DNA of 20,893 nt from a virus. The stretch's first letter is position 1. Each line of letters starts with the position of its first letter. The notes under the pieces were generated by a model. That model was given only the letters and a program-made list of their open reading frames with translations. It ran no database searches and was not told the origin of the DNA. Below, one piece after another: positions 1-20,567 of the stretch. The stretch spans positions 1-20,893 of the IMG/VR virus record IMGVR_UViG_3300038786_000507. One strand, 5' to 3'. A program made the position numbers and the translations under genes.

Positions 1-775
1 TATTAGAAGTGATACTCAGATCTAGTGTTGAGTTTGGATTCGCATTTACATAATCCATTACCTTGAATGTATTATTGTCCATCAACGGCTCACCGCCTGT
101 CATACGAAAAACTTTTAGTTCTTTGTATACATCAGGAAACCATTCCCAGAATGCTGAGATATATGGATTATCTTTACGAGCAACTTCTAATGGCATCATG
201 CCAGTCTTTCGTAAGTAATCTAAATCATTATGACCAGATCCATTTGAGAATCTAAAGCCACCATGTTCTTTGATATCATCTTCCCATGCGGTAGATAAAT
301 GAGGTGAACAGTAAGCACACTTGAAATTACATGCTTGGTTGAAATTAACTTCAACATATCTTGGAGCGATATCATGGTCCCACGCATTGTCTACTACTTC
401 ATCCCATGCTTCTTTAACCCACCATTCGCTTGAACGATAATGTCTATCACTAAGTCTCGGCTCTGGTTCTGGTCCACCAACTACTGCTGGATTAGGAGCA
501 TCTTCTACGTTCCAACAATACTGACATCCTTCTGGACGAGTACCCTCTTTCATTTGCTTTCGTTCTTCTAATTTGAACTGAGTGTTATGAAGTGCGTTCT
601 TGTTTATCTTTAACTCTTCAAGTGGAATAGGATGAGTAGGTGGATGATAACAACTATGAGTGCGACCTTGTGGCAAATGTAAACTCACTTGGAGCCATTT
701 TGCCATACACATGGACGGAGACAACTTATTGAGTTCGCCCCTTGTTACGGTCGCGTCATCATCGTAATTCGACAT
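1..775 (-). CDS. Twitch-type radical SAM protein (3' end cut by window edge)
   Basis: Minus-strand frame open from ATG at 775-773 to the left edge, 258 codons seen, no stop. The radical SAM signature is CNFKCAYC, with Cys149, Cys153 and Cys156 (CX3CX2C), the ligands of the 4Fe-4S cluster that cleaves S-adenosylmethionine. TGGEP at 226-230 is the usual SAM-binding motif. Upstream lie Cys42 and a CQYC pair (Cys84, Cys87) followed by WNVED, like the N-terminal cysteine segment of phage twitch/SPASM-like radical SAM proteins; any C-terminal cysteines lie outside the window. The start overlaps the stop of the 327-aa gene by one base (TAATG), with GGGAT about 8 nt upstream, so it is the last gene seen in a coupled operon with glycosyltransferase-like genes. 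Family: seen. Reaction and substrate: unknown; peptide or sugar modification is only inferred from context. Confidence 0.9.
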   Translation of the reverse strand, partial: MSNYDDDATVTRGELNKLSPSMCMAKWLQVSLHLPQGRTHSCYHPPTHPIPLEELKINKNALHNTQFKLEERKQMKEGTRPEGCQYCWNVEDAPNPAVVGGPEPEPRLSDRHYRSSEWWVKEAWDEVVDNAWDHDIAPRYVEVNFNQACNFKCAYCSPHLSTAWEDDIKEHGGFRFSNGSGHNDLDYLRKTGMMPLEVARKDNPYISAFWEWFPDVYKELKVFRMTGGEPLMDNNTFKVMDYVNANPNSTLDLSITSN

Positions 776-1758: not shown

Positions 1759-2327
1759 ACTTTTCTCCAAGAATACTTATCAAAATACTTCTGCGTATAA
1801 ACGCTTATACTGTATTTATTCTCTTCAAACTTAACTCTTTTTCCAGTAGATAATAATTCAGAAAATGGAACTAACACAGTTTTGATTAAGAACTCTGGCT
1901 TGTCTTTGTATGTTACAAAAAATACATGTTCAGTCTTGCCCGCGACAGACACTACTTGATTTGGATCGATTCCAATACTTTTCTTTAGACTTTCACTCGC
2001 TTCAAAAACTAAGTCACCGTCTTCGATGTATAGTAGGATATCAGTATCTAGTGTTGTAGATATCTTATGTAACTGATTATCTTTGTTTCTTCGTCTAATA
2101 TCAACCTTTGTTTTTATGATCTCATATACTAATGGGTTAGTTGTTCTACTAACGATGTAATCTGTAAACTTGTAACTGCCGTCAAGAAAAGGCATGATAT
2201 CATCAAACTCGAACCAGGCAAATAAATCTTTTGTATCCCGTGTCTGATTTGTTATCTGAGTAATCTTACTAAAGCCATCGAAGTAGACCGCGCGACACGT
2301 ATCAGTTTTTTCTATAACACTTAACAT
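1755..2327 (-). CDS. Hypothetical protein, 190 aa, in glycosyltransferase operon
   Basis: I do not recognise a family. The protein begins MLSVIEKTDTCRAVYFDGF and reads as a soluble, mainly beta-strand protein with many charged residues and alternating hydrophobics (TDILLYIEDGDLVFEAS near the middle, HVFFVTY later). It has no signal peptide, membrane segment or cysteine cluster. The start overlaps the preceding stop by one base (TAATG at 2329-2325) with GAGAGG about 9 nt upstream; its end overlaps the next gene by 4 nt (ATGA). This double coupling between two glycosyltransferase-like genes argues that it is real and works with them, perhaps as an accessory or acceptor-binding protein; that role is inference only. 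A DGD tripeptide is present but lacks the hydrophobic strand-DxD-strand setting of the neighbours, so I do not call it a transferase. Confidence 0.75.
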   Translation of the reverse strand: MLSVIEKTDTCRAVYFDGFSKITQITNQTRDTKDLFAWFEFDDIMPFLDGSYKFTDYIVSRTTNPLVYEIIKTKVDIRRRNKDNQLHKISTTLDTDILLYIEDGDLVFEASESLKKSIGIDPNQVVSVAGKTEHVFFVTYKDKPEFLIKTVLVPFSELLSTGKRVKFEENKYSISVYTQKYFDKYSWRKV

Positions 2328-3181
2328 TATTGTGCCCTCTCAAGTTGTGCAATCTTACTACTATCCATCCAATCTTTCTCTACGTAATGTAAGGGTAATG
2401 TTTGAGTAAAATTACCAATCTTAACTTGTAAGTCATCGCTTAGTTCACTAGTAATACTCTTCGTCCAGTTACTCTCTATTTGATTCGCTGGCACATTCTG
2501 AATCATACTTTTCATATGAACAAACGTAGGAACATCTTTAATAGAATAGTCACAAGTTTCTTCTTCAATGTCTAAGAGTTGAATTGCTAACGCATATGCG
2601 ACATCCGCACTCATCCAATTCTGACCAACACCATTAAGAAATTTATCAAAGTATACATTCCAATGAGTCATAATCAACTCAACCATCTTAAAGAATTCGA
2701 ACGTTAACTCTGACTTTTTAAAGTAAGTGAAGTTACTATACACGTTCGGTAAATTTAATTGAGTAAATTTCTTTCTGTAGTAGTCGCTTGTTACATCTTC
2801 GTTTCTGAAAGTTTTAACATTAGTGCAACACCAGACATCTCTCTTTGCTAGATACTGCCACCAATGATCTACGCTAGTAGTAAACAACATATCACTATCA
2901 AGTATAATAGTTTCATCATACGGAGTCATATGTGGATATTTCCACTTATTGTGAATCTTCCACTTGTCTCCCATAGCATCATCATTCCACGGAATATCAA
3001 CTATGGCATCGAATGCATGTACGTGCTTGTCTGTAATTAGTTTTCTAGTTTCATCATCTACACATACACAAAGATTGCTGTTTTCTTGTGTTGCGTTTAG
3101 ACTGAGAGCCAGTGCATACGACATTTCCAAGTAATCAATATCACCGCTATTTTGTGCGATGGTTATATATCCTTTACTCAT
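2327..3181 (-). CDS. GT-A-type glycosyltransferase-like protein, paralogue B (284 aa)
   Basis: Starts MSKGYITIAQNSGDIDYLEM, then TPYDETIILDSDMLF with the DSD motif at 95-97, placed as the DxD metal-binding motif of GT-A glycosyltransferases (GT8-like order: N-terminal Rossmann-like strand, DxD near residue 100). TYFKKSE and a DVAYALAIQLL helix follow. The same landmarks in the same order occur in the adjacent 291-aa protein, so the two are tandem paralogues. GGAGA precedes the start, which overlaps the end of the upstream paralogue by 8 nt (ATGAGTAA), suggesting translational coupling. No signal peptide or membrane segment, so a cytoplasmic enzyme is expected. Sugar donor and acceptor cannot be read from the sequence. 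An alternative is a sugar-nucleotide-binding protein without transferase activity. Confidence 0.78.
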   Translation of the reverse strand: MSKGYITIAQNSGDIDYLEMSYALALSLNATQENSNLCVCVDDETRKLITDKHVHAFDAIVDIPWNDDAMGDKWKIHNKWKYPHMTPYDETIILDSDMLFTTSVDHWWQYLAKRDVWCCTNVKTFRNEDVTSDYYRKKFTQLNLPNVYSNFTYFKKSELTFEFFKMVELIMTHWNVYFDKFLNGVGQNWMSADVAYALAIQLLDIEEETCDYSIKDVPTFVHMKSMIQNVPANQIESNWTKSITSELSDDLQVKIGNFTQTLPLHYVEKDWMDSSKIAQLERAQ

Positions 3182-4049
3182 TTACCTTTTCTCCATATAA
3201 TAAGAAGTCATCCATAAATCGTGCTATCGCCTTCTTGTTCATAATGTGCAAATCAGTGTTCGTGAATCTTGTTAGTATATGGTCTGTAATTCTTTCTGCA
3301 TCTGCACAATACATGATAATATCATTGTGAGAATTAACTCGAAAGATATCATCAATATCAAAACTGTTATTGAGGTATGTAATAGGCAATGACGGCACAT
3401 CAAACGCAACACTACCATTTAGTATATGTAGTGCCATCGAGAATGCAAAATCATTACGATACAATGAGCCACTACAGTTATACAGGTAATAGTAATACTT
3501 GTAATTCTGTTTTATATGGCTTATCAGTGTAAATAGATTTTCAGCGAATTCAGATTTCTTAAAATATACAACAGTTGCCCAATACATTGGAATACTGAAG
3601 TTATCAATGTATTCAATATGTTCTTTATGTCTACCAGATACATCTCGATAATGACAATTAATCATAAGATCATTTTCACTATCCCATACTTGGTCTAATA
3701 CGGCATTCATGATGAAGTAATCACCATCAATGACCAGTGTCTCATCATACGGTGAGAGTTCGTATACTTCGGACCTAGACATGTTCTTGAAGGTCGCGTA
3801 TTCTGTCTTGTCGGGAGTGTCTTTAAACAGTCTTATATTGTCAGGTTGAAAAGAATCAGTAACAATTATTCTGTCAAAGTATTCATTGATTAATGTTTCA
3901 TTTTGTTCTAATGTTTCAGTATTAGTGATTAGACAAATTTCATCAAACAACGAAAGATTCTTTCTGGCAAAACCAGCACACGCACACGCAGTCTCCGCAT
4001 AATTGACATACTCGTTATTCTGAGCAAATATTATAATACCCTTACTCAT
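3174..4049 (-). CDS. GT-A-type glycosyltransferase-like protein, paralogue A (291 aa)
   Basis: Starts MSKGIIIFAQNNEYVNYAET, with SPYDETLVIDGDYFI placing DGD at 108-110 as the probable DxD metal/nucleotide-sugar site. VVYFKKSE, a tyrosine-rich segment (KYYYYLYN) and DFAFSMALHILNG follow. These landmarks match the next gene (MSKG..I.AQN, PYDET..(I/L)D.D, YFKKSE, D.A...A...L), so the pair arose by duplication. They have since diverged strongly, which suggests different donors or acceptors rather than redundancy. The start is 2 nt beyond the stop of the 131-aa gene, with AGAGAT upstream. It is a soluble protein by inspection. Transferase activity is inferred from motif and fold-like order; no substrate can be named. 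Confidence 0.77.
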   Translation of the reverse strand: MSKGIIIFAQNNEYVNYAETACACAGFARKNLSLFDEICLITNTETLEQNETLINEYFDRIIVTDSFQPDNIRLFKDTPDKTEYATFKNMSRSEVYELSPYDETLVIDGDYFIMNAVLDQVWDSENDLMINCHYRDVSGRHKEHIEYIDNFSIPMYWATVVYFKKSEFAENLFTLISHIKQNYKYYYYLYNCSGSLYRNDFAFSMALHILNGSVAFDVPSLPITYLNNSFDIDDIFRVNSHNDIIMYCADAERITDHILTRFTNTDLHIMNKKAIARFMDDFLLYGEKVNE

Positions 4050-4501: not shown

Positions 4502-5470
4502 CTAAAGAGAAGAAATAGTTGAATAAGTTGGGGAAGAAACAGATACTCCATCTGGCGAATCTGTTGGACGAATTTCGTCTAGTGTAACTGTGAGTGTACC
4601 AGCAACATAGTCAGTACCTGTCCAAGAACCACCACCATCGTGTGCCCATGTTCCGGTGTCTGCTGGATGACTATCATCAAACGCCATCTTAACATCAATA
4701 TCAGCAGTACCATTAAGTTTTGCCCAGATGTTTAATTGGTTTCCAGAATAATCAGCAGTGCCGCCCTTGGTATATACTAATGTATATCCGGCAGATAGAT
4801 TATTAAATCCTACTCCGGGTGTGCCTACACTTGCTGAACTCTCAGTCGTAGTGTGGCCTAATTTTACAGTAGCAATTGCACTTAACATATTTTGCCAATC
4901 AACACTTTGTGCGTGAGAGGCATCAACTCCACTAAGAACAGCATCGAATCTTATTTCGCCGCCAGAATTAAAAAAGTGTCTACGAGCAGTTGTATTTGCA
5001 AATGATACCTTTGCTTCATAGTATACTTGATTTATGTTTGTCCACGTAGGAGTACTTGGTGAGCCATTTGGATCATAGAACGTTGCCAAGTCTGAAATTT
5101 GATTAGGAGTAACAGTCATATATGCCACATCACTGTTCAATTTATTAGATACTATAGTTGCTATGTCAGTTGTTAACGTTGGCAATATAGTGATAAGTTT
5201 ACTAGCAACGGGCCAACTAGCATCAGATGAACTAGCCGGAACTGATATTGTTGTGCCCTGGTGTCTGGCAGCATAAAGCATAGAAGTCAAAAGTTCATCC
5301 CACAATGATGCTGTTACTGATCCGCCTACTACAGCGTTAGTGACAACGAGATGACCTTGGCCGTATCCTGAATCTGCCGAACCGATACCTACTATATCGT
5401 TTATATCGTTAGCAAAAAGATTAAAGTCCGCGGCGCGAACTTTACCTCCTAGATAATAACTTTGTGGCAT
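4502..5470 (-). CDS. Virion structural / tail appendage protein, GGEIR paralogue 2 (322 aa)
   Basis: The N-terminal half contains NDINDIVG and SGYGQGH (34-40) with GGSVTASLWDEL; the C-terminal half contains SGGEIRF (GGEIR 170-174), DYSGNQ (240-245), GGSWTGTDYVAGTLTVT and a final GVSVSSPTY. Each landmark recurs in the same order in the neighbouring 303-aa protein. The composition (rich in S, T, G, A and N, no cysteine, short beta-like segments) and the GYGQ/GGEIR pattern fit tail or baseplate-attached structural proteins of marine T4-like phages. Its location after gp25, gp6 and the giant protein agrees with a late virion gene. The start at 5470 has GAGAG about 11 nt upstream, in a 26-nt gap. 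The exact virion position is unknown; a receptor-contacting or decoration role is inference. Confidence 0.75.
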   Translation of the reverse strand: MPQSYYLGGKVRAADFNLFANDINDIVGIGSADSGYGQGHLVVTNAVVGGSVTASLWDELLTSMLYAARHQGTTISVPASSSDASWPVASKLITILPTLTTDIATIVSNKLNSDVAYMTVTPNQISDLATFYDPNGSPSTPTWTNINQVYYEAKVSFANTTARRHFFNSGGEIRFDAVLSGVDASHAQSVDWQNMLSAIATVKLGHTTTESSASVGTPGVGFNNLSAGYTLVYTKGGTADYSGNQLNIWAKLNGTADIDVKMAFDDSHPADTGTWAHDGGGSWTGTDYVAGTLTVTLDEIRPTDSPDGVSVSSPTYSTISSL

Positions 5471-5496: not shown

Positions 5497-6408
5497 TTAT
5501 AGGTTGTCTGTTACAGTGAATACTGGATTTGTAATACTAACAGAACCAGAAGGATTCGTCATTCTAAGTGACGCAACCGTTACTGTTGATGTTCCAGGTA
5601 CTGTATCAGCACCAGTCCATGACCATGCACCGCCGTAACCTGAACCACTACCTGAACGAGCCACGTGAGCATCATTTAATGTAGTTTTCACGTAGATAGA
5701 TGTACCAGACTTATATGCATGAACCGTAATTTGGTTAGCACTATAATCGGAGTCGTTTGCATATTCGCGTTTGATAAGAGCATAACTTCCAGTTAGATCT
5801 GAATACTTTTTACGAGTCGAGGTATCGGTATTAGTTTCTGATGTATTCGCTGTGATCTTATATGTTCCCATTTCACCAGCAAGTTGTTCCCACGAAGTAC
5901 CTTGTTGATTAGATGACGTATCATTATGTGATGCTGAAACTCTAATTTCACCACCCGCTGTCATCCATGCATCCATGACTGCTGTTGAACTAAATGTAAC
6001 TCGTACAATTTGTACTCGCGAACCATTCCAGTTAGATACTGTTTGAGATGTTTCGTTCTGAACACTCATATCCCACCCAGTAGCATAAGACCACGGTGCG
6101 TTAAAACGAGTATTAATCGAAGATTCAAATGCTGCCGCGACACTTCCGTAATGTGACCAGTTTACCACTGTTCCTGCATTTACCGCAGTAAATGGATTTG
6201 AAATTGCATAAAAGTTTGCAATTTTAGCTGCCGCACTATAGAGTGAATCTAAGTACGAATCGTCAATTACTGATCCCGATGTTGGGTTTGCCGCAACTGT
6301 GTGAGATTGGTTATAACCACCAAGAACTCCAGTCCCGTTAAGTATTGTATTCATTTTGTCACGTAGACTACTTAGATCTGCGTTATGTATTATTGAGCCT
6401 GAAGCCAT
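5497..6408 (-). CDS. Virion structural / tail appendage protein, GGEIR paralogue 1 (303 aa)
   Basis: Landmarks in order: LGGYNQSH (29-36), GSVIDDSYLDSLYSAA, MTAGGEIRVSASHND (GGEIR 152-156), WEQLAGEMGTYKI, DYSANQ (221-226), GAWSWTGADTVPGTSTVT and VSITNPVFTV near the C-terminus. These align along the whole length with the 322-aa neighbour, so the two form a tandem duplicated pair. The small-residue and Ser/Thr/Asn-rich, cysteine-free composition is typical of beta-structured phage fibre or baseplate-associated proteins. A strong AGGAGT lies 6 nt before the ATG, and the preceding gene ends 17 nt upstream. A structural role is supported by family resemblance and position; a specific named T4 counterpart (gp9, gp10, gp11, gp12) cannot be assigned from sequence. 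Confidence 0.76.
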   Translation of the reverse strand: MASGSIIHNADLSSLRDKMNTILNGTGVLGGYNQSHTVAANPTSGSVIDDSYLDSLYSAAAKIANFYAISNPFTAVNAGTVVNWSHYGSVAAAFESSINTRFNAPWSYATGWDMSVQNETSQTVSNWNGSRVQIVRVTFSSTAVMDAWMTAGGEIRVSASHNDTSSNQQGTSWEQLAGEMGTYKITANTSETNTDTSTRKKYSDLTGSYALIKREYANDSDYSANQITVHAYKSGTSIYVKTTLNDAHVARSGSGSGYGGAWSWTGADTVPGTSTVTVASLRMTNPSGSVSITNPVFTVTDNL

Positions 6409-7161: not shown

Positions 7162-10100
7162 CTATAAGTCTTGTAAAACTATTTGCAACGGAACATCTAA
7201 TACATATACTGTGTCAAGATTCGCAAATGCGTGTCCCAATCCAGTATACAACGCTCTATTACTAATAGTTAATGCTGTTCCTACTTTCTTGTCGTATAAC
7301 ATGAATTCCATATCAGAACTCCCTGCTTTTTGGACGGCTATTAATTTCTTATTGGTATCAGATGCCCCATCATCGAACAGTGCTGGATGGTTCACGGTAA
7401 GGGTAGTTCCATCAAATGCTGATATAGTTCCTGTGCCAGTAACACTTACATTGTATCCTCTGCCATAAATATCATAAACGTACATCAATGTATTACTGAC
7501 TGTTTCTGAACCTATGCCAGCAGTTATATTTCCCGTGTATGTTTGTAATTTTAATATAGTCGATTCTAGTCCATCAAATCTTACAAAGCCAGTATCGAAT
7601 CCCGTAGTTCCGTTTGTTATTGTAGTTCTACTTCTTAACAATCCACCTTGTTCGTATTCGCCATCAGCGATAGACGAGAACGATGAAGGGTCGGATGTAT
7701 CGTAATCCCCACCATCTATTACATTTTCATCATATCTACTATTACTACCGAAATCTAAAGTAAGATTCATCTTCTCATCAATGGTAGTTGTCAGTGTTGC
7801 TTTATCACTCAATGTATTCGTTCGTGTAATTTCTCTTATTTTGACGTGATATGGTTTCGCTTCTCTAACATATTCTAATACATCTGCTTCGCTATCTCGT
7901 TGATACACCGCGTATTGTTTCAGATCACGATTATACAGATTCAAATCTATATAACTTGTTTTAAACAACCAAGTAGGATAAGTCTTTTCTGTGTAAAGAT
8001 AATTGATCATAGTAAAGAATATATCATTGATAAACGAATTATCAGGATAATCCTTGATCATATTCATTAATTCTTGAATCTGAATTCCCACTGCATTATT
8101 ATAATATATATCAAATGATAATTCTGGATATACAAGGTTATCAAATGATACACTCAATGAACTTTTACTTCTATTGACTAATTTTAATGTGCCATTATCT
8201 TCAAAGTAATATTCGTCATGTGTTGGCAACTTTAACTTAAATGATTTTATTCCATTATTATATTCTGTCAACATATCAAAATTTCGAGTAGTCGATAGAT
8301 ACGAGAATGTATCAATTGTCTTGTAGTTATCAGTTAGATACCAATCAGTCAAGTCGAATATAATATCGTCAGTGTTTATGTATTCTGTGTACTTAGAATA
8401 TAAACTCACTAGTAACTTACTTTTCATTGTATCATTTATAACTGAAGCAAAATTACTTCTGGCAGTAACATTATCTGCAAACCAATTATCTTCCGTAGGC
8501 GCTATCTTGTATACTCTTAATATATCGCCTGCTATCATCGTATGTGTTTGTGATATACGTAGATTACCACTCGAAATACTTAGATAACTTGCTTTCACCG
8601 TGCTACTATTAATAGTAACTACTATATCGTTTATACTCAAGTCTGTTATCCAATAGATTGGAATTATCGCATTATTAACATCAGTTAATTGTGATGATGA
8701 TAACCCGGCAGTATGCGTTTTCATAATACTAAGATTCGATAATGAATCGATCATATCATTTAAGAATGTACCGGGAACGATAGTATCTGTGTTCTTCGCT
8801 AACATCTCCCAATCAGAGTGACCTTTGCGAATACCAGATTCTTGTTGGTATTCTAATGTAGTACTTACCGTTTCATTAGTATATGAAGTCGCGTTATTAC
8901 TAATAAGAACACTTGACGGACCAACAGGTATAAATTTATTCTTAGTACCACCTGCTGAAATCAACATTGCGATTTCAACAACTTCAGCACCAACAGAAGA
9001 CCAGTAGAAATAATCAGTAACTTCTTTGCCTGCTACATCATCGTAATACTTTTTAGTAGTATATGTTGGTGTTTCAGTTGGCAATATTCTAGATTTCGTC
9101 CACTTCTTAACAACAACGGACGACTCTGTTACTAATCTTCCCCAATACTTCTTCACATAGTTGACATTCAAGTTTCCGTTTGAATCACCATAATCGTTGT
9201 ATCTATAAAATCTTGCTAAGTCTGTGTCCCACCAGATCTTGCCCAACTTCTCATCTAACCAGATATCAGAACTAGTAGTATTATCATAACTTGCTGGATC
9301 ATTCCATGCGATGTATTCTAGTTTAGAAACAATTGAACCAGGCATTTTTAAGTTAAGTGGATCATATATTTGATGATTAATGAAGTTATCTCCATCTTTT
9401 ATCATTAATCTTTTTGTCAAATCAGTGTCTATAATCGCTGATTGTCTTGCGTGAACTGACAATATTCCAGTCGTACTTCTATTAAGAACCGCCCAGTCAC
9501 CAGTAGTGCCGTATGTATCTGCCCACAATTTACTCGCGCTGTTCAGTCCAAGACTGGTGTAGAATTCAGTAAATGTATTACCGTTAATTCCTGGAGTGTA
9601 TCTAATAGATTTCCAAAGCATTGCTTTATAATTAGCACTACTTGTTACGTTTGAGTAATCTCTTACCAGCCCTATTCTAGTCAATAATGCTTCACTTGTT
9701 CCAGAGAAGGACATACTTACGCCAGTGTGAGTGAATATCATTCTGCCATCGCTTGATAAATTAACAGTAAGTCCAGTTGTATTAGTAACTGCATCAGTAA
9801 TTTGTCCAGCAAATGCAATCGCTGAAGAACTTAATACTGATGTGTTCGAATATGTACCAACTGTTATTCCGATATCAGATAGAGAATTTCCTATGATATT
9901 ACTAGCAACTATACTGCTTTCAGAACTTGTTATTAATACCTGTCTATCAGATTTAGTTGCGGTAGATGTTGATGACGCGAATACTTGAGAATTTAAATCA
10001 CTTATAATGTTATCAGTAGCATCTACTGCCACAGTAGTCGTAGCATATCCTAATCTTCCCATAGCGCCAGACGTTACTTCAACTATATCTAAGTTATGAT

Positions 10101-13100
10101 TTGTGCTTGTTATTTTAATTGTGCCAGTTACAACTGCCGCAGTTACCCCTAGAATACTTAGTGCGTTTATTTGTGAAACAACACTTGTTGCAGTTGGACT
10201 AGAGTTCGCTTCATACGTGCCCGATGTAATACCCAATTCAGACAATGCTGTTCCTGAGATAGCCATCGAAGATGCAGAACTTGATATTACCATGTTACTA
10301 CCAACAACAGAACAAGTAATACTAGTTATAGTATTGATTGCTGTCGCTAGATTATCTAGTTTTGAGTCATAATACAATGTAGTAGTAGATAATCCCAGGT
10401 CTTGTAACGCACTGCCCGACATATCTAATTCAGGAGATGATGTCGTTAGAACTAATTCGTTAGTTCCCGAGTTACTAGCAACTACTAAAGTTGATGTTGA
10501 ATTGATTGCTATAATAATTTCAGCAAGAGTATCTCCACTCGTAAGTGTCACAGTTTGACCATTAATTGACAATGGTTTCGTAGATGCCATCACTGGTGCC
10601 GTTACTGTTCCAGTCGTAGTTAACGCTACTACTGTCTTTGTTACTCCATCGATGACAACTGTGTTTCCTGTAGTAAGTGGCGAACTTTTTGTAGCCGTTG
10701 AAGTCAATGAGATTCCAGCAGAGGCACTATAATCTATAGTTAATGTTGTGCCGTCAATTGTAATTGCATCGCTATAATTACTAGTAAATGCAGTCGATGT
10801 AGTTGCAACTGTACCAGTAAATGTTACGTTAGTATCAGTAGTATTCTCAACTAATCCACTAGCATTGTAAATAACAAATCTTGCTTGTTCTCCCTCTGAT
10901 ACTGTTGGATTTGCAACTGTTCCCAGTATCGAGATTCCAGATGTCGAAGCAGCCACAGAGGCGTAAGTGAAACTCGTTCCATCGACAACTAGTATGTCAC
11001 TTGCAGTGAATACAGGGTTGCTTATTGAACCAATTGCTTCGATTCCAGAATCTGTTGTCGTAGGAACGAAGATACTGTTAGTAGTTGAAGAATCTATTTC
11101 AATAATCACTGGCTCAAAGTCTTCTTCGAATACTAGGTATTCATGAATAGTACTCGTGTTTACTGTTTTTGTTCCATTTGCGGCTAGCAAATAATATCCG
11201 TCTATCGTTGGATCTATTTCAGCACCAGAAATCTTTAGATAAATTGGTTTATCAACATACGCAGAATCTATTGCAGTAAGCATTCCAATGTATAATTGAT
11301 TATCAGAAGTTTCACCAATATAACTTATCTCTGCTACTTCACTTAATCGTACCACGTCCCAGTCTCTATCTATATCGAATTGAACCCATGCTGTATCTCC
11401 CTCATATAATGTATTAGTTTCAGTTGATAACCCTACTAAATCACTCTGAGTCTTCGTTAGATAGTTTACATCACTTACATCAACATAACCCGATGTCTTT
11501 ATTGCTATTGCAGGCTTAGATGAGCGTGGCATTAGTGTTTTTGTGATGTTCGGATATTCTATCAAGAATGGATTACTAATCATATCGTTGACTTTTACAT
11601 CTTTTGTCATTGTAAGATTAGTTGATATCTGTCCATAGTCACTTAACTTAACAGCCCAGATATCAGAATGCTTGATGTCTTTGAAGTTACTGTTGTTATT
11701 AACAATTCTATTAATACTTGAGTTTGTTCCCTTGTGAGATAAGAAACCTTTATAAAATTCTAGTTGTGATTCTCTTTCAATTCCATGATTAGACAAGTAT
11801 GCTCTAGTTGTATATCCCATATGATTTGATTTTAATTTGTTAACAATCGACAATCCTTGGTCGACAATTGTATTTCGATAATGGCGAGTTTCTTCAATCA
11901 TTGTATCGAAGTTTGGTATTAATTGATTATCATGAACTAGATATCCATCAACCGACATAGTTCCGTCCCAATCTAATGTTCGATTACAATCAATTTGCAT
12001 ACGAAGATTTCGTGTGTGAGTATGAGGGTCGTAGATAACGTCATCGTAACTGTCAACTCTGTCAACAACGAATGCGTGTTCGATGTCTCTTATATCCATT
12101 TTCATTCCATAGATAGGAATATTACTAGTGAATGATAATTTGGCACCGTCTGTATGGAAATCAAGTTCAGTATTTGGTATAAGTCTACCTGAAGAGTCTA
12201 CTACTCGATAAAAGTTCTTGAATGTTTCAGTGGCCACACTCGCTACGCCGTAAGTTGCATTGAAAGTGCCCCCCGTCAATAGCGGAGTCAATGTAATGAA
12301 ATCTCCAATGGTGTGTTGTTCGCTCTGCCAATCTAAGAACTTATACAATAGATTTTCCCAATCTATGACATCACCGCTTTGGTCTGAGTCTGTGAATTCC
12401 CATCCTACTAATTTCAAGTATTCTTGATAACCCAATATTAAATGAGCAACATCATCTACTGTTTCTAAGATGTCACCATAATTGTAATTCTTTATAGTAT
12501 CGTTTACTAATTCCTTGTAACCATTCGCAGTTGTTTTGTTTGTTCTTGGCCATTCTACTACTGGTTTCCAATCTTTAATATTGTCATCAAATAATGTAGT
12601 CGAGGTATGTGATGTAAGACAAACGTAGGGAGTGTCATTCCATAATACATACGAATCTAGTCTATAATATTCTCCACCCTGCCAGTTTTTTAGAGCAAGT
12701 TTATCTCCTGCTGTTGAAAATACTTTCTCGCCACTTGCTGTATCCCATCCCATTGAATAGAATGTTGGATTAATTTCATCGTATCCGTGGACTTGGAATC
12801 CGAACTTATTTGTCTTCGGCTGCGATATAAGTGCCCAACTACTATAATCAAATGTGATAATACCCGCAGTCTCTTTTGTAGAGATACCAGTTGTTTTTCT
12901 TTTATAGTATTTGTTGTCGCCCGTGTTTAGAACAATATCACCCTTGACATACGTTGCCGCACTGGCAAGGCTATAAGCGGGATATGGTAAATCTAATGAT
13001 ACCTTCTCTAACACGATAGCACTAAAGAATTCACTTCTGTTTGGTACCCCCGCATGAACGAATAAATCATAATTGTCTGTTGGTATCTCAGAGAATCTAC

Positions 13101-15915
13101 TATTAGATAATGAGTTGTTCTCTGACTGTAGTTTGAAATTATTGACGAATCCGCCTAACTTCGAACCCAACTTAAATGAATACTTGACTTTATCCGCAAG
13201 AACAACACTGGTGTCAATACCTTCATTTTTATTAGAGTATGTGATAATGTCTTTTATCTGTGAACTGTAATTATACACAACTTCGAACGGACTTGACAAT
13301 AACATTAATGTAAATTCAGCGAAAGCGAATTCACTACTTCTAGTCCAAGCAAGTTCAACTGGTGAACCGTCTCCAAATTCCCATGCTTGGTCCATCAATA
13401 ATATATCACTTGATGTTATCGCGCTGCCGAAGAATAAATCACTAGGCGTCTTCAAGTTTCCAGAAACATCAACTGGCACTGGACAAGATAACGAATTGGC
13501 AGATATTAATGATGTCCAGAATGAAGTTTGTGTGTAATCAGCCCCATAGGTTGTATCAAAGTTTGCTGGTTTTTGTGATAATTTTATTGCTTTCCAAGGT
13601 TCAAGCAATGGTCTATCTGTGCCGTACGCATTTATTAGTTGTCCTCTCCAGTGACCACTAGAATTCTCATCTTTTGCTCTATAGTTCCATGTCTTATATT
13701 CGGTAGCATCGAAGTCTGTGTTATCTAGATTATCAATGCTATTTCTCATCATCCATTTTTTAAAGAAAGGATACATGATATATTTCTTTTCAACATTCGA
13801 ATAATCAGTGCCAGCAGTACCATATAATCCATAATTCATGCTATCTATTTTAGCACTAGAATTATCTGTTAAATTATTAAATATTAAAGTCTCGAATGAA
13901 AGGAGTATAGTATCGATTCGTGTTCCATACATAGGAATCAACGAGCCATCGTGTCCTTGAATAAACGAAACATCAGAACTATATTCAGTGTCAGTTACAA
14001 CTTTGGGCTCAAATGCCGGTGCAATTTTCAATGAAGTTGCACTTGGTGGTATATAAGTTTCTTTTACATTGGAATAGTGTCGAATATCTAGTGAATCACT
14101 AGATGCCAACGCGGTTGTAAATGTTATATTTGTTGCGCCTGATGATAACGTGTAATCTTTATTTAACCGTTTGACAACGTTGTTTAGAATAACAACAACA
14201 TCTTTGTCATTTAGTATAGTATCACTAAATGATGGCATCACTTGTTCTGTTGCGCCATCTACAATTGAGACACCAAGTGTTTGATAATGAGAATGGACAT
14301 CACCAAAATTTATCATTGAACTGTCGCGGAAAATACTAACACTTGTATGTTTTCCAAGTGAAATGGTGCCTATGGCTTCTTCTAATATTTGTAGATCAGT
14401 TTTGGTCTCACTTGAACTCGATTCTAAAATAGAAATAATAGTAGTCATTAATTTATTTTTGTAACCATTGTATGCACCAGATAAAAATTCTGTTGCTTTA
14501 ATAGGGTCGTAGTCATTTCGTGTTAATGCAAAGTATGCCTCTTTAATATCAACTGCGTTGCGAATAAGTACACTGCCTTGGTTCGCATATCTTAGTTTGT
14601 CTGTGTTTGTTCCTGACGTTCTGTAGTTATTTACTGCGTTTGCATTACCAGTTAATCCAGATACAGTCTCGACTATACGAACCATATGCTCGTATACAAG
14701 AGAGTATGTCATTTCTGTGTTTACATACGACTTGTTATCCACGTTATATTCAACTGATGGGTTAATGCGCTGGAACACGGTGGCACCATCATAAACAACG
14801 GGAGTAGCAGTGCAATAATCGACATACGCGCTTCCACTCACTGATTCAGTCATTGTGATTTTATTGGTAACACTACTAAATGTATAGTTTCCTATTTGTT
14901 TCTGTCCATCTACGTACACGTCTATTGTATTAGAATTTTTTGGTGCTTGTAGAAGTTCAATCTCAGTTATCACTACACTGTCGTCAATTTCTTGTCTTAG
15001 ATTTCGATAATCAAATGTAGATGCGATGTATAAGTTTTTATATACTGTTGATAGTTTGTAATTTGATGACTCTACCAAGTCGATGTTGAATACAAATTCG
15101 CTTTGATAGTCTCCTGCTACCAACTTGGGTCCAACTGGATCTAGTCCCGAATCTGGAAATGCCAATTCAGTATCCTTTACATATCCGGTACCAGTTACAT
15201 AATGAAATATTTTTATATCACTGATATATGTGTTAGTAGAATCATACGACTTAAACGTGGGAACTGTAAATGATGATGACACGGTGGTTGATGCACTTGT
15301 GTCACTCATCGCAATGTTCTTATCAAATTCAATAATAGGTCTCAGTGCTTGAGATATTAAAGTAAAGTTGTCATCTGTAATTAAAGATTTAATATCATCA
15401 TAGTGATACCAAGAGTTATTCTTTTTCCAGAAGTCAGAAGCAGTTGAGTCTTTATCAATCGTTACATAATGCTTTTTTGTTGATGACTGAAAACTTGCAT
15501 CAGCCGTAAATCCAGGCTTAATCCAATAATACATACTGAAATTGATAAACTTATCTAAGTCAATTGGCAAACCTACTGTCTGCAATGTACTTTTAAATAA
15601 TCTCCTGTGGTCATTAGTTAACGCACCTTTATTGTACATTGCGTTGAGTAAATCGTCATAGAATATGTTATCAGTTGAGTCTACACTTGAGAATGTAGGT
15701 TCGAGCCCATAATTATCTCTTGCGTACGCCTGTGTCGGATACGATAGATATATATCATTACTGTTATATATTCCCTTTTCCTTTCTGCCAACAAATGCTT
15801 TCGTCTTCTCCATTTCACCAACAGAGAATACTCTGTCTAATGTAGTGTCGAATATTGTTTCTAACTCACTGTTCTTTAGATGACTTGGTAAAAAGTCATA
15901 AATCTTCTTTGCCAT
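7162..15915 (-). CDS. Giant virion structural / baseplate protein in gene 7 position (2917 aa)
   Basis: One uninterrupted frame filling 42% of the window. The N-terminus (MAKKIYDFLPSHLKNSELE, YYWIKPGF near 130) matches the style of giant structural proteins that follow gp6 in marine T4-like phages. Three copies of a small beta module (hydrophobic-VxVDG/NN, later Y, then I-T-F/I) appear near residues 325-370, 565-610 and 2425-2470. Residues about 1620-1780 hold SGI..GT..NP repeats, and about 1778-2085 hold five hook-IN-like repeats. REAKPYHVKIRE lies at 2684-2695 in a C-terminal conserved segment. The order 25-6-this gene matches T4 25-6-7, and T4 gp7 is 1032 aa, so a wedge role is likely but homology to gp7 is not shown. 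It starts one base after the gp6 stop (TAA-T-ATG) with GGTAGG upstream. It could replace several wedge or tail-fibre proteins. Confidence 0.85.
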   Translation of the reverse strand: MAKKIYDFLPSHLKNSELETIFDTTLDRVFSVGEMEKTKAFVGRKEKGIYNSNDIYLSYPTQAYARDNYGLEPTFSSVDSTDNIFYDDLLNAMYNKGALTNDHRRLFKSTLQTVGLPIDLDKFINFSMYYWIKPGFTADASFQSSTKKHYVTIDKDSTASDFWKKNNSWYHYDDIKSLITDDNFTLISQALRPIIEFDKNIAMSDTSASTTVSSSFTVPTFKSYDSTNTYISDIKIFHYVTGTGYVKDTELAFPDSGLDPVGPKLVAGDYQSEFVFNIDLVESSNYKLSTVYKNLYIASTFDYRNLRQEIDDSVVITEIELLQAPKNSNTIDVYVDGQKQIGNYTFSSVTNKITMTESVSGSAYVDYCTATPVVYDGATVFQRINPSVEYNVDNKSYVNTEMTYSLVYEHMVRIVETVSGLTGNANAVNNYRTSGTNTDKLRYANQGSVLIRNAVDIKEAYFALTRNDYDPIKATEFLSGAYNGYKNKLMTTIISILESSSSETKTDLQILEEAIGTISLGKHTSVSIFRDSSMINFGDVHSHYQTLGVSIVDGATEQVMPSFSDTILNDKDVVVILNNVVKRLNKDYTLSSGATNITFTTALASSDSLDIRHYSNVKETYIPPSATSLKIAPAFEPKVVTDTEYSSDVSFIQGHDGSLIPMYGTRIDTILLSFETLIFNNLTDNSSAKIDSMNYGLYGTAGTDYSNVEKKYIMYPFFKKWMMRNSIDNLDNTDFDATEYKTWNYRAKDENSSGHWRGQLINAYGTDRPLLEPWKAIKLSQKPANFDTTYGADYTQTSFWTSLISANSLSCPVPVDVSGNLKTPSDLFFGSAITSSDILLMDQAWEFGDGSPVELAWTRSSEFAFAEFTLMLLSSPFEVVYNYSSQIKDIITYSNKNEGIDTSVVLADKVKYSFKLGSKLGGFVNNFKLQSENNSLSNSRFSEIPTDNYDLFVHAGVPNRSEFFSAIVLEKVSLDLPYPAYSLASAATYVKGDIVLNTGDNKYYKRKTTGISTKETAGIITFDYSSWALISQPKTNKFGFQVHGYDEINPTFYSMGWDTASGEKVFSTAGDKLALKNWQGGEYYRLDSYVLWNDTPYVCLTSHTSTTLFDDNIKDWKPVVEWPRTNKTTANGYKELVNDTIKNYNYGDILETVDDVAHLILGYQEYLKLVGWEFTDSDQSGDVIDWENLLYKFLDWQSEQHTIGDFITLTPLLTGGTFNATYGVASVATETFKNFYRVVDSSGRLIPNTELDFHTDGAKLSFTSNIPIYGMKMDIRDIEHAFVVDRVDSYDDVIYDPHTHTRNLRMQIDCNRTLDWDGTMSVDGYLVHDNQLIPNFDTMIEETRHYRNTIVDQGLSIVNKLKSNHMGYTTRAYLSNHGIERESQLEFYKGFLSHKGTNSSINRIVNNNSNFKDIKHSDIWAVKLSDYGQISTNLTMTKDVKVNDMISNPFLIEYPNITKTLMPRSSKPAIAIKTSGYVDVSDVNYLTKTQSDLVGLSTETNTLYEGDTAWVQFDIDRDWDVVRLSEVAEISYIGETSDNQLYIGMLTAIDSAYVDKPIYLKISGAEIDPTIDGYYLLAANGTKTVNTSTIHEYLVFEEDFEPVIIEIDSSTTNSIFVPTTTDSGIEAIGSISNPVFTASDILVVDGTSFTYASVAASTSGISILGTVANPTVSEGEQARFVIYNASGLVENTTDTNVTFTGTVATTSTAFTSNYSDAITIDGTTLTIDYSASAGISLTSTATKSSPLTTGNTVVIDGVTKTVVALTTTGTVTAPVMASTKPLSINGQTVTLTSGDTLAEIIIAINSTSTLVVASNSGTNELVLTTSSPELDMSGSALQDLGLSTTTLYYDSKLDNLATAINTITSITCSVVGSNMVISSSASSMAISGTALSELGITSGTYEANSSPTATSVVSQINALSILGVTAAVVTGTIKITSTNHNLDIVEVTSGAMGRLGYATTTVAVDATDNIISDLNSQVFASSTSTATKSDRQVLITSSESSIVASNIIGNSLSDIGITVGTYSNTSVLSSSAIAFAGQITDAVTNTTGLTVNLSSDGRMIFTHTGVSMSFSGTSEALLTRIGLVRDYSNVTSSANYKAMLWKSIRYTPGINGNTFTEFYTSLGLNSASKLWADTYGTTGDWAVLNRSTTGILSVHARQSAIIDTDLTKRLMIKDGDNFINHQIYDPLNLKMPGSIVSKLEYIAWNDPASYDNTTSSDIWLDEKLGKIWWDTDLARFYRYNDYGDSNGNLNVNYVKKYWGRLVTESSVVVKKWTKSRILPTETPTYTTKKYYDDVAGKEVTDYFYWSSVGAEVVEIAMLISAGGTKNKFIPVGPSSVLISNNATSYTNETVSTTLEYQQESGIRKGHSDWEMLAKNTDTIVPGTFLNDMIDSLSNLSIMKTHTAGLSSSQLTDVNNAIIPIYWITDLSINDIVVTINSSTVKASYLSISSGNLRISQTHTMIAGDILRVYKIAPTEDNWFADNVTARSNFASVINDTMKSKLLVSLYSKYTEYINTDDIIFDLTDWYLTDNYKTIDTFSYLSTTRNFDMLTEYNNGIKSFKLKLPTHDEYYFEDNGTLKLVNRSKSSLSVSFDNLVYPELSFDIYYNNAVGIQIQELMNMIKDYPDNSFINDIFFTMINYLYTEKTYPTWLFKTSYIDLNLYNRDLKQYAVYQRDSEADVLEYVREAKPYHVKIREITRTNTLSDKATLTTTIDEKMNLTLDFGSNSRYDENVIDGGDYDTSDPSSFSSIADGEYEQGGLLRSRTTITNGTTGFDTGFVRFDGLESTILKLQTYTGNITAGIGSETVSNTLMYVYDIYGRGYNVSVTGTGTISAFDGTTLTVNHPALFDDGASDTNKKLIAVQKAGSSDMEFMLYDKKVGTALTISNRALYTGLGHAFANLDTVYVLDVPLQIVLQDL
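9660..10585 (-). repeat. Five tandem flagellar-hook-IN-like protein repeats inside the giant protein
   Basis: About residues 1778-2085 of the 2917-aa protein. Each unit has a helix-like start with an N or Q (AEIIIAINS, LATAINT, VVSQINA, IISDLNS, FAGQITD), a short strand (LVLTTS, MVISSS, IKITST, VLITSS, MIFTHT) and a closing turn (LQDLGL, LSELGI, MGRLGY, LSDIGI, LTRIGL). Spacing from one closing turn to the next is 54, 61, 60 and 66 residues. The first unit begins LSINGQTVTLTSGDTLAEI, close to the flagellin hook IN motif of bacterial FliD/FlgK-type proteins. The resemblance is by eye. Confidence 0.7.
10560..11070 (-). repeat. SGI-G-NP Ser/Thr-rich repeats inside the giant protein
   Basis: About residues 1620-1780 of the 2917-aa protein. 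Partial copies are visible as SGIEAIGSISNPVFTASD, SGISILGTVANPTVSEGE, AGISLTSTATKSSPLTTG and TGTVTAPVMASTKPLSINGQ, most followed by a strand with a (V/I)DG or NG turn (VVDG, TIDG, VIDG, SING). They lead straight into the hook-IN-like array, so the two blocks form one extended Ser/Thr-rich stretch of about 465 residues. Confidence 0.55.
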
Positions 15916-15916
15916 A

Positions 15917-18900
15917 TTATTTGCCTACCAATTCAGATTGCGCTAATTGTGTTATTATTTTTACATCACTAGATGTCGTTACTGCCATAAATATTTCATT
16001 CAATGAACATGATATACTTAACAAATTCGTAAATGTATTTGTTGCATATTTTGGTGTAATAATTACACTTGAAATATAATCGCCTAATTCTTTATGTAAG
16101 TATGCTGCCAACTCTGAGAAATAGAATGTTGCTCCAAAGTCCCAGTTGTTGATTGCAAAATACTCATTTACTTTAGTAGATACTACTGTCTTAATTTCGC
16201 TATCTGTGTATCCAGTTCCTAGTTTTTTAATGACTTTAAATATTGCTTGATTCTCATTACTAGCATGTGAACCAAAAAGATACTTAAACTGCACTGGGAT
16301 ATAAGCAATGTGGTCTGCAATGGCACCCTTCGGCTCAATACTACTCATTATCTTTGCTAATTCAAAATTATTAGGAGCAACTGGCGAAGTAGTCAAAAAG
16401 TCGTCTGCTACCCATTCATCTACCTTCCTAACATAATCTGAACTTAATACGTACATATCGACAATATTACTAGTGCTAGGATCTATTCGCTTGTTTATAT
16501 CAGCATAATGGTCCCATCTGAAACTAGTAAATTCGTCTTTAACAAATGTTATACCTTCAACTACTCGGTATTGTATGCTGTTGTAGTTGATCTGAATTAG
16601 AGCAGGAGTAACAGTAGTTTGATCTACGTGTCCCGTTAGCACACTCCATCCACCCGCTTCGCGAATATACCAAGTAGTATCAGTTGTATTATAGTATATA
16701 GTGACAGTAGAAGGCACTCTAGTTGGTCCACTGGCAGCGACCACAGTTTTTGATGCTCTTTCATATTTTATGTTATTGTCTGTATATTGTTCCATTACTA
16801 CCGTTTCGTCAGTTGTAATATCGAGCATAGCAAACGGGTTATCGTTAGTATCTGAAGTTAACAGTTTAACCTTTGTACTATCTTTGTAACCAGCAGATGT
16901 CAAGTAGTCATCATACACATACGATGATGTTCCCGCATATGTCGTGGTTGTTGCGTTTGTTCCTACCGAAAGTCCAAATGATGCAGAAACTCTCACTGAG
17001 AAATCTGCGATAGTAGTTATGTCTGTGTCCACTCCGATAATTACATCAACTAGTTCTCCAAGTGTTATCGCATATGTCCAAAAAATAATCTTGTAGTTTG
17101 TACCAGATGTATTAGTAACTGTTATATGGTCGTTACTGAGTATCGTACCAGTGCTATCTCGCAGTAACACATTACTTGTAGTAAGTGCAGTTGCACTTGA
17201 TACTGTGAATTCTCCGTAAGCATATTGTTTGAAATAGAGGTCTGCGTCTAAATTGTTATAAAGAGCGGAGGCTGCGGTTGACATTGTAAATGTATATTCG
17301 TCTGGTGCAGTAGAGTATACTGTAGTGAAATCTGTGGTTGTCGTTGCATCTGATACATCACTCCACTTAAAGTTATTACTCGAGGCGGCAGCATTAAAAT
17401 AAGACAACGATTTTTTGCCCTTGAATCCTAAAGTATCCAGTTCATTAGATGTTTGTGTTGAATGCGAATTATTGGAATCACCAACATTACCAGTGTATCC
17501 TTCTAAGAATCCAACGGCGTCAAGTGATGTGAAAACATCACTTGATGCTATTGTAGTAATATCTGTTCCGCCGGATATAGGATCAGGAGTTGTTGAGTAA
17601 TTTGCTAAATCACTCACTGCTATTGAAAGTTTATATTCATTAGTATCGGCTGGAACAGTAGTATACTCGTCAGTGTACCCTATAATTTTCCATGTGTCCG
17701 ATATTGGATATGTAATCTGACTTGCTCTATTGAGTTCATATTCTATTCCTGATGGCGATACAAGATGATGAGTGTATACTACACTAGATATTCCCGCAGT
17801 CTCGAAATCATTATCTTCTACAAAATCGTAAGTTGTTGGTGCGCCACTATATTTAAATATAGCATCAAATGTTGCGCCTGTTCCACCATCAGTTACTACT
17901 GTGCTGGATGCTATAGGAACTTGTCCCACTGTAACTTTCTTACCAGTGTCTTCCGTGGCTGTTCCAATAGTTCCCGGAGATTCTTTTAAGTAATTAATAA
18001 ATATCGCATCTCGTTTAGATAAATTTGTTTCGTTATCGATTACATCGGTAGTGTTACCGTAGAAAAATTTAACTTCATCTCTACTTTCGAATGCAACTTT
18101 TTTGCCTGTAAATTGGGCAGTATATTGTGATTCATTATCTCTGATGCCAGAATTATAATTAAATACGACATGAACTTCTGATGGAACTGAAGCTGGTATC
18201 GTTACCGGATGTAGTTTCCATTCTAGTTCAGTTGGCTTACTCACTGACACAACCGCATATTTTAACGTAAACGTTTGTTCTGCATTACTATCAACTGAGG
18301 TTTTAATGTTAGCGATTTCGGTAGCAGTGAACTTAGTTCTGAATCCTCTTACTACTGATACTAATCTGCCTACTTCTGGAATAAACTTACTTAATGTAAG
18401 AGTATCATCTGCGTTTGCAGGAGATGTTGATGTTTCTACTTTTTTGACTACAGCCCAAATAGTTTTTCCTGATGCTGTTAATAGTAACTCAATCCAGTCT
18501 CCAACAAAAACACCACTTGTCGGAGCAGATGTTGTTTTAATTTTCATTCCATCTGCTACATCAACAGCATATGTCGATGTTTGTGTTATTTTAACTTGTC
18601 CATTATCTTTGTTGCCATGTAGAAATTTATTTAAAAGACTTGGATGCTTCAACGCACTTGCTAACTCATTTCGTATAAAGTTGTCGCTGTTTCCTTGGAG
18701 TTTATTATAACTCAATGGAATAGACACTACTTCATCTTCAACAAATAGACTTCCGTCAGAACCAGTTACACTCAAATTTGAGTGATGTCCCAACACATCG
18801 TCCATTTCATAAAAACGTGAGTTACCAGCAAATGATGTGTTTACTGATTTTAATTTAGTGATTACATTGTTTCCCAACGATAGCGGATATACATTGTAAT

Positions 18901-20209
18901 CTTGTGCGTTAACCATTCTATCTTGTGAATAATAACTTCTGGGAGCAATTCTTCGTACACTAGTATATGTTTCGCCAGAGAAGTTTTCACCAAAGTCGAT
19001 CGTACTTGTCATTGTTACAGTAAGTCTATACGTTTTAGTATCAGTTCCAACATATGGAATTGTTATAACTTTGTTAATGATATCATTAGAGTTTACAGAA
19101 AAATTATCATTATCAACTGTTCGATACCACACTCGGTAGTTACCATATGCCGCATTGCCAAAAAGTCCATCCGGATAATGTAGTTCAACCGCATTGTCGT
19201 CCATCGAATTTATACTTACTATATCTCCTGAACCAGTTCGCAAACTATTGTAGATGGCTGTTTCTCTAGTGTCATTGTCTATAGAAGTGACACTTGATAC
19301 ATAAGATCTTGTTGAATCTATTTTTTGAACCCATACATCTGAATTCGATATATTAGATTCATTTATTGTCTCTATTCTATTTGATATTTTGTTATTGTAG
19401 ATGAAGTCTTGATAATTTGTTGAACCTGCGGCTGCGTAAACAAAGAATCCAGTCCTGTCACTAGCAGATCCCAAGTTATCATTTCTATTAACAATCGTAA
19501 AGTTGTTGTTTTGATTTGGTTCGGCTTCTTTAATCTTTGTGTTTTTTGTATCTAGTATAACTCTTACTGCTTCAAAGTCTCTACTCTTGCCCTTGATATT
19601 AGCAGAGAATGGATAGTTTACACTTTTTGTGGTTGTGTCTTCGTTTATTTCATACAAAGAATGCTCCACGTCCGATATAGTCAACGTAGATGATGGATTC
19701 TGAATCTTTGTTGTACCTGTAAAAGAAGAATTTAAGATACTAATAAAGTTCTCGTACCAATCGATGTCATTGCTATCATTCCAGTTGATAACTTTGCCTG
19801 CCAAAGAAATGCCTTCATTATCAAGAACGCCCTCGTCAGTTGTTACACTAGAAATCTTCATGAAGCCTTTTGCGTTTATTGGTCTAGTCTTATTGTAACC
19901 TAACGTCTTTGCCATTTGTAGAATACTTGCTCTACGTTCAGCAGTGTCCATAAAGTTCTCACGAGTATTCATGTCCAATCTGAATGCTAAACTGTGTCCC
20001 ATATAAGCAACTAAATCTAAAATTGCGATGAATTCTGAACTCGCAACAAAATCATTAAATTTATTAGGATAAGTCTGAACTGTATATGCTAACAGGGCTT
20101 CTCTAATTGTATCAAAGTCATATGCTTTAAGACTGATATTGGTAAAAGCAGTGTATACTGCTGTCCAACTCTCACTTGCAAATAAATTGTCTGTACGTTC
20201 TTGGCTCAT
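15917..20209 (-). CDS. gp6: Baseplate wedge protein gp6-like, enlarged (1430 aa)
   Basis: gp6 is the wedge subunit whose dimers form the continuous ring of the T4 baseplate. The N-terminal part fits gp6 of T4-like phages: FDTIREALLAYTVQTYPNKF, a FIAILDLVAYMGHSLAFRLD helix and RENFMDTAERRASIL within the first 95 residues; PDGLFGNAAYGNYRVWYR; then RSYYSQDRMVNAQDYNVYPL (422-441). The C-terminal module from about residue 1277 (NFELAKIMSSIEPKG, FKYLFG, INNWDFGATFYFSELAAYLH) also fits. T4 gp6 is 660 aa, so roughly 700 extra residues lie between these conserved parts and are rich in Ser, Thr, Asp and beta segments. The gene starts one base after the gp25 stop (TAA-T-ATG) with GAGAG upstream. No frameshift is seen. 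Identity is firm; the function of the insert is unknown. Confidence 0.88.
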   Translation of the reverse strand: MSQERTDNLFASESWTAVYTAFTNISLKAYDFDTIREALLAYTVQTYPNKFNDFVASSEFIAILDLVAYMGHSLAFRLDMNTRENFMDTAERRASILQMAKTLGYNKTRPINAKGFMKISSVTTDEGVLDNEGISLAGKVINWNDSNDIDWYENFISILNSSFTGTTKIQNPSSTLTISDVEHSLYEINEDTTTKSVNYPFSANIKGKSRDFEAVRVILDTKNTKIKEAEPNQNNNFTIVNRNDNLGSASDRTGFFVYAAAGSTNYQDFIYNNKISNRIETINESNISNSDVWVQKIDSTRSYVSSVTSIDNDTRETAIYNSLRTGSGDIVSINSMDDNAVELHYPDGLFGNAAYGNYRVWYRTVDNDNFSVNSNDIINKVITIPYVGTDTKTYRLTVTMTSTIDFGENFSGETYTSVRRIAPRSYYSQDRMVNAQDYNVYPLSLGNNVITKLKSVNTSFAGNSRFYEMDDVLGHHSNLSVTGSDGSLFVEDEVVSIPLSYNKLQGNSDNFIRNELASALKHPSLLNKFLHGNKDNGQVKITQTSTYAVDVADGMKIKTTSAPTSGVFVGDWIELLLTASGKTIWAVVKKVETSTSPANADDTLTLSKFIPEVGRLVSVVRGFRTKFTATEIANIKTSVDSNAEQTFTLKYAVVSVSKPTELEWKLHPVTIPASVPSEVHVVFNYNSGIRDNESQYTAQFTGKKVAFESRDEVKFFYGNTTDVIDNETNLSKRDAIFINYLKESPGTIGTATEDTGKKVTVGQVPIASSTVVTDGGTGATFDAIFKYSGAPTTYDFVEDNDFETAGISSVVYTHHLVSPSGIEYELNRASQITYPISDTWKIIGYTDEYTTVPADTNEYKLSIAVSDLANYSTTPDPISGGTDITTIASSDVFTSLDAVGFLEGYTGNVGDSNNSHSTQTSNELDTLGFKGKKSLSYFNAAASSNNFKWSDVSDATTTTDFTTVYSTAPDEYTFTMSTAASALYNNLDADLYFKQYAYGEFTVSSATALTTSNVLLRDSTGTILSNDHITVTNTSGTNYKIIFWTYAITLGELVDVIIGVDTDITTIADFSVRVSASFGLSVGTNATTTTYAGTSSYVYDDYLTSAGYKDSTKVKLLTSDTNDNPFAMLDITTDETVVMEQYTDNNIKYERASKTVVAASGPTRVPSTVTIYYNTTDTTWYIREAGGWSVLTGHVDQTTVTPALIQINYNSIQYRVVEGITFVKDEFTSFRWDHYADINKRIDPSTSNIVDMYVLSSDYVRKVDEWVADDFLTTSPVAPNNFELAKIMSSIEPKGAIADHIAYIPVQFKYLFGSHASNENQAIFKVIKKLGTGYTDSEIKTVVSTKVNEYFAINNWDFGATFYFSELAAYLHKELGDYISSVIITPKYATNTFTNLLSISCSLNEIFMAVTTSSDVKIITQLAQSELVGK

Positions 20210-20210
20210 A

Positions 20211-20567
20211 TTATTCTCTCTCTAAATCTATACTTAATTCTACTGGCTCGTTTGATGGTAGAATTTCAAGGCGCACGGCGGCGCTGATAGTGTGGTCGGA
20301 ATCTGTAACGTCAATACTTAGGAAGTTACATCTCGGATCATCTTTTATAATTTCTGTCAAATCTTCTTCAATCAACTCGATTGTTTCAGATGTCAATGGT
20401 TCAAACAACATTTCATGGATGATAGATCCGTAATTAGGCAGCATCACGCGTTCGCCTTTACGAGTCATGATGTTATTCATGAGGTCTTCAATAATCAAAT
20501 CTTTGTCAGTCAACTCATGGTTGATTGCTTTTTTATTTTTGGTACTAAAACCAGCGAATAATGGCAT
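20211..20567 (-). CDS. gp25: Baseplate wedge subunit gp25 (118 aa)
   Basis: Member of the GPW/gp25 family, a small wedge protein found in contractile tails, type VI secretion (TssE) and related machines, where it joins the wedge core and the first sheath ring. Seen: MPLFAGFSTKNKKA N-terminus; DLIIEDLMNNIMTRKGERVM leading into LPNYGSIIHEMLFEPL, the family's G.R....P.YGS....LFEP core (about residues 38-58); then an acidic helix (ELIEEDLTEIIKDDPRC) and paired C-terminal strands. The length is close to T4 gp25 (132 aa). It is the first gene of the minus-strand baseplate operon and is followed after one base by gp6, as in T4 where 25 and 6 are adjacent. A weak GAGA ribosome site precedes the ATG, with a late-type promoter element about 34 nt upstream. 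Confidence 0.92.
   Translation of the reverse strand: MPLFAGFSTKNKKAINHELTDKDLIIEDLMNNIMTRKGERVMLPNYGSIIHEMLFEPLTSETIELIEEDLTEIIKDDPRCNFLSIDVTDSDHTISAAVRLEILPSNEPVELSIDLERE

Follow-up and report, generated by a model that had tools for sequence, protein, structure and literature searches.

A five-unit tandem array of flagellin hook IN-like domains in a giant phage baseplate-region protein

The window analysed here, a 20,893-nucleotide stretch of viral DNA, is part of a 22.2-kb virus fragment. Its long open reading frames all lie on the minus strand and together form a contractile-tail baseplate cluster. The first of the baseplate genes encodes a gp25-like wedge protein of 118 residues (20211-20567, minus strand; Pfam GPW_gp25, 44.5 bits; PHROG 43) and is followed by the gene for a gp6-like wedge protein of 1430 residues (15917-20209, minus strand; PHROG 10646 and PHROG 219, baseplate wedge subunit). 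The third gene (7162-15915, minus strand) encodes a giant baseplate-region protein of 2917 residues, which carries the array described below. The giant protein matches PHROG 10938 ('virion structural protein') with an E-value of 1e-195; a full-length Pfam scan gave no family over its cut-off, and sequence searches for a known structure of the protein or a homologue gave none. The gene order is that of T4-type phages, in which gp25 and gp6 are followed by gp7, and P-SSM2 possesses a giant gp7 of 5195 residues. A reading of the letters alone (the sequence-only reading) had placed the protein in a baseplate region and at the gene 7 position. The gene order supports the baseplate context and the position, but profile comparison with T4-type gp7 (hhalign E 0.3) and with P-SSM2 gp7 gave no match, a result with which distant homology is compatible.

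The named relatives of the 2917-residue protein are the jumbo phages of the PA5oct group, SCTP-2, Phosso, Atu_ph07 and RaK2, and its close relatives are IMG/VR contigs. Two contigs from the wider clade are 342 kb in length. The array-carrying clade is taken to be one of jumbo myoviruses, presumably marine judging from the kind of contigs.

Beside the baseplate genes, an open reading frame cut by the window end (2-775, minus strand) encodes a Twitch-domain radical SAM protein (NCBIfam NF033640, 186.5 bits; cut-off 170). The gene is kept in relatives, and an annotated radical SAM gene is also located near the giant-gene homologue of Phosso. Three minus-strand proteins (775-1770, 2327-3181 and 3174-4049) contain DxD-like motifs (DGDN, DSDM and DGDY), show 72-96% conservation in relatives and resemble GT-A glycosyltransferases by eye; family searches gave no naming match for them. 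Two of them (2327-3181 and 3174-4049) are mutually related (E 1e-9), and each matches PHROG 1903 (unknown function). These putative glycosyltransferases could modify S/T-rich virion proteins. Just past the giant gene and one small gene, two tandem paralogues are found on the minus strand (4502-5470 and 5497-6408; 27% identity, E 5e-20), the first of which is seemingly absent or replaced in a close relative, L009 (best match 25%).

The array consists of five tandem units at window positions 9658-10581 on the minus strand, corresponding to residues 1779-2086 of the giant protein. The units comprise 59-65 residues each, close to the 54-66 residues of the sequence-only reading, which had located the array at 9660-10585 (residues 1778-2086). 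All on the minus strand, unit 1 covers residues 1779-1842 (10390-10581), unit 2 residues 1843-1901 (10213-10389), unit 3 residues 1902-1961 (10033-10212), unit 4 residues 1962-2021 (9853-10032) and unit 5 residues 2022-2086 (9658-9852). Unit 5 is the most diverged and contains a conserved SSDGRMIF strand. The array is preceded by an S/T-rich β-strand flank (10582-11085, minus strand; residues 1611-1778) with repeated GD.(I/L).IDGT..TY hairpins. Self-similarity in this part of the protein is observed between residues 1601-1611 and 1671-1691, and the strands are present in both structural models. A profile match covers elements b1-b4 of the flank, of which b4 overlaps the start of unit 1, and the last strand of the flank adjoins unit 1 in the models.

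Self-comparison and profile pairs both give a strong repeat signal, in agreement with the five-unit tandem array proposed earlier. When the whole protein is compared with itself, the top non-overlapping window pairs fall in about residues 1771-2070. Single sequences reach clear significance only for units 1 and 2 (z 6.8) and units 2 and 4 (z 6.4), and the signals of units 3 and 5 are clear only with profiles. The unit profiles, built from 36 homologues, align pairwise over 40-58 columns. Unit 2 matches unit 1 with a probability of 97%, unit 3 matches units 1, 2 and 4 with 92-95%, unit 4 matches units 1 and 2 with 96-97% and unit 5 matches unit 2 with 96%. All ten unit pairs scored higher than all 40 column-shuffled controls, including the weakest pair, units 4 and 5 (hhalign score 22 versus a shuffle maximum of 15). 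At the DNA level, no tandem repeats are found at the array among the families shown, and the duplications are therefore probably old.

AlphaFold models generated from 20 sequences (first model) and 36 sequences (second model) each contain five units with a strand-helix-three strands-short helix arrangement (E-H-E-E-E-h). In the second model, units 3 and 4 exhibit the same secondary structure as the other units. A single β-helix is ruled out by both models. Thus, neither a missing internal repeat nor one β-helix-like fold, the two outcomes that would have contradicted the sequence-only reading, was encountered, and the predicted structure is one of repeated small domains. The confidence of the second model is moderate (pLDDT 78, pTM 0.47), with pLDDT values dropping to about 52-69 in unit 5 and low at its end, so that the overall shape of the array is uncertain.

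The top Foldseek match in the PDB is H. pylori FliD (E 1.5e-5 in the first search and 5.9e-4 in the second), with flagellins and contractile phage sheaths making up most of the hits after it. In VIA-align comparisons, unit 1 superimposes on V. cholerae FlaA (Z 11.0, 2.2 Å, 86 residues), on E. coli FliD (Z 8.8) and, at Z 5-9, on the sheaths of A-1(L), XM1, phiTE, Pa193, E217 and Mu and on podovirus nozzles. The structural matches span only unit 1 and the first strand of unit 2. A search of a viral structure library gave alignments of 294 columns between the second model and two proteins, one from an uncultured phage (2e-5) and the other a tail sheath protein of Myoviridae sp. ctWb16 (1e-4). Other phage proteins may therefore carry multi-unit versions.

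The hook-IN character suggested by the sequence-only reading is borne out for unit 1, with FliD and flagellins as the top PDB folds and a Pfam score over the curated cut-off of Flagellin_IN (PF07196; 22.7 bits). Unit 1, matched at 10429-10572, scores 27.7 bits alone and 27.5 bits in a genome search, and the unit 1 consensus of relatives reaches 36.2 bits (E 7e-9). The score depends on the sequence supplied: it is 22.1 bits in a 526-residue segment, and the match is missed in the scan of the full-length 2917-residue protein. At a loose threshold, half of 20 relatives match Flagellin_IN. The unit 2 consensus gives weak FlgK_D1 and Flagellin_IN matches, both below the cut-off; the consensus sequences of units 3-5 match neither Pfam family, and units 2-5 all remain under the PF07196 cut-off. 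Units 3-5, like unit 2, would therefore be tied to the Flagellin_IN family through their internal similarity to unit 1. The IN or near-IN dipeptide that ends the central helix is exact in units 1 (AIN), 2 (AIN) and 3 (QIN) and drifted in units 4 (DLN) and 5 (QIT).

The unit 4 consensus scores 20.5 bits against the bacterial Ig-like family Big_2, under its cut-off of 22.8, and a helix, present in the units of every model, argues against this family. Pfam assigns the giant protein no core domain of flagellin, FliD or FlgK over the cut-off and no tail sheath domain, and the gene context is a phage baseplate cluster; the protein is accordingly classed neither as a flagellar protein nor as a sheath. 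PF07196 also gave no match in T4, P-SSM2, HTVC008M, ACG-2014f, Mu, K491, S13 or a 636-kb uncultured phage, and only 15.7 bits in KVP40, in another open reading frame. PDB sequence searches with the unit 1 consensus and with a segment profile returned no flagellar chain, and the flagellar link thus rests on Pfam and on the folds.

The likeness to flagellar IN domains could reflect convergence on a common small α/β sandwich without shared ancestry. VIA-align Z values of 6-11 over 75-90 residues at 10-25% identity can arise from a common arrangement, and the Foldseek E-values are modest. However, the PF07196 profile by itself places unit 1 over the cut-off, and ten shuffled unit consensus sequences (two per unit) gave no Flagellin_IN match. 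Moreover, sequence comparison recovers IN domains in phage sheaths. Pfam calls Flagellin_IN in the sheaths of Phosso and Atu_ph07, together with Phage_sheath_1C, and a unit 1 profile built from the phages studied here finds the same places (Phosso, 3e-6; Atu_ph07, 0.002). Convergence is thus quite unlikely.

The number of units is invariant. In 41 of 41 distinct complete arrays, units 1 to 5 occur in order. Because this sample was partly drawn with the array sequence, a second sample was taken using the conserved upstream core; 67 of its 80 loci read through the array, all with units 1 to 5 in order, and the other 13 stop before the array end. Counting relied on unit HMMs that derive from the same set of relatives. 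The variable part of the array is an insert of about 70-210 residues in unit 1, which separates the hairpin of this unit from its helix. Of 49 tree rows, 10 carry the insert, and at least 3-4 gains or losses are needed to explain its distribution on the tree. Since all complete arrays have the same five units, the extensible spacer proposed by the sequence-only reading is not supported. An array acting as a ruler or spacer, with copy number setting its length, would account for equal-sized tandem repeats in a giant structural protein. Such a role is very unlikely, given that every relative reading through the array has exactly five units although lengths differ elsewhere in the protein, and that inserts enter unit 1 with the unit number unchanged, a pattern that a spacer of fixed length would still fit.

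The array is richer in S and T than the rest of the protein (33% versus about 19%) and poorer in K and R (3% versus 9%), an S/T-rich, charge-poor composition that resembles that of a surface domain. The array evolves under purifying selection, with dN/dS values of 0.11-0.22 in six comparisons. These features bear on another alternative, in which the array binds a receptor or glycan, with each unit or the unit 1 insert weakly touching the host surface before the tail fibres lock on. The composition, the repeated presence and absence of domains in unit 1 and the location in the baseplate, the host-facing end of the tail, are all consistent with host contact. Receptor-binding parts are usually the most variable, whereas the array displays a low dN/dS with no sign of diversifying selection, a fixed unit number and a conserved core; a divergent unit 1 is nevertheless found in L009. 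Overall, we consider receptor or glycan binding unlikely.

Two observations concern sequence divergence along the gene. In comparisons with six close relatives, the array and its β flank (9658-11085) mostly show a lower dS (about 0.3-0.9) than the neighbouring parts of the gene (about 0.5-1.8), a hint of recombination or synonymous constraint in this region. In L009 (L009:12040-13032), unit 1 is far more diverged than the other units, as if it had been swapped by recombination.

We favour, as the probable explanation, an array that forms a surface arm of fixed length pointing outward from the baseplate, built from five outer domains of the flagellin/FliD type and offering a site for domain insertion in unit 1. 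This folded arm would stand out from the baseplate surface, contact neighbouring virion parts sideways or the host surface weakly and take no part in contraction. Unit 1 would serve as a landing site for an additional domain, which in some lineages separates the hairpin from the helix. The projection, virion position, contacts and function are inferred by analogy with the same fold on phage sheaths and flagellar filaments. A bolder version, in which a module exchanged between flagella and tails was expanded to five copies and engages host flagellar or other surface filaments, or associates side by side like flagellar outer domains, is highly improbable.

None of the six named distant relatives that were compared has the array at this site, and its gain would be placed in the marine clade and not in these relatives. 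In Phosso and Atu_ph07, the baseplate protein is homologous to the 2917-residue protein outside the array, and the array site (L044 and L045; about residues 1675-3170 of the homologous protein) contains about 1500 residues with GxGY...P repeats. In phages of the PA5oct and RaK2 types, the site is occupied by a shorter, unrelated-looking segment. Because these types differ from Phosso and Atu_ph07 at this point, different lineages hold different modules at the array site. The IN array was not found in isolated phages by tblastn at E up to 10, where the low-complexity filter may hide S/T-rich matches, or in bacterial genomes in a scan with one short pattern; a scan with the SCTP-2 core also gave no match.

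Among known systems, the flagellin hook IN motif (PF07196) of FliD, FlgK and flagellin outer domains is like unit 1 in both sequence profile and fold, and tandem repetition also occurs in flagellar proteins. In contrast to flagellar proteins, the array sits in a phage baseplate-region protein that lacks the core domains of flagellin and FliD. Structure comparison reveals the same fold in the lateral insertion domain of the contractile sheaths of Vibrio phage XM1 (gp6), phiTE, Mu, E217 and A-1(L) (Z about 6-9), but each sheath subunit carries a single domain, whereas the array presents five consecutive copies in a protein of the baseplate region. The sheath insertion domain of XM1 was reported to be similar to FliD, and gene exchange with the host was suggested (2023; PMC10457771). 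The study of Adele described the same domain in sheaths, nozzles, auxiliary capsid proteins, FliD and flagellin (2025; PMC12846349). Sharing of the module between the flagellum and the contractile tail is already published for sheath proteins, and such sharing is not as unusual as the sequence-only reading had supposed, given the published occurrence of the fold in phage tail sheaths, nozzles and auxiliary capsid proteins. In the jumbo phages Phosso (Sinorhizobium) and Atu_ph07 (Agrobacterium), the Flagellin_IN module resides in the annotated tail sheath and not in the baseplate protein. No open-licence paper in the literature searched describes an IN array in a baseplate protein, and the tandem arrangement in a baseplate-region protein appears to be new. 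The array adds the baseplate region to a small published list comprising the sheath, the nozzle, the auxiliary capsid protein and the flagellum, and indicates that the module can be kept as a fixed tandem array. Through two virion proteins of related jumbo phages, flagellar IN motifs are linked to phage virion domains at the level of sequence and not only of fold, which makes the direction of module movement testable with sequence data.
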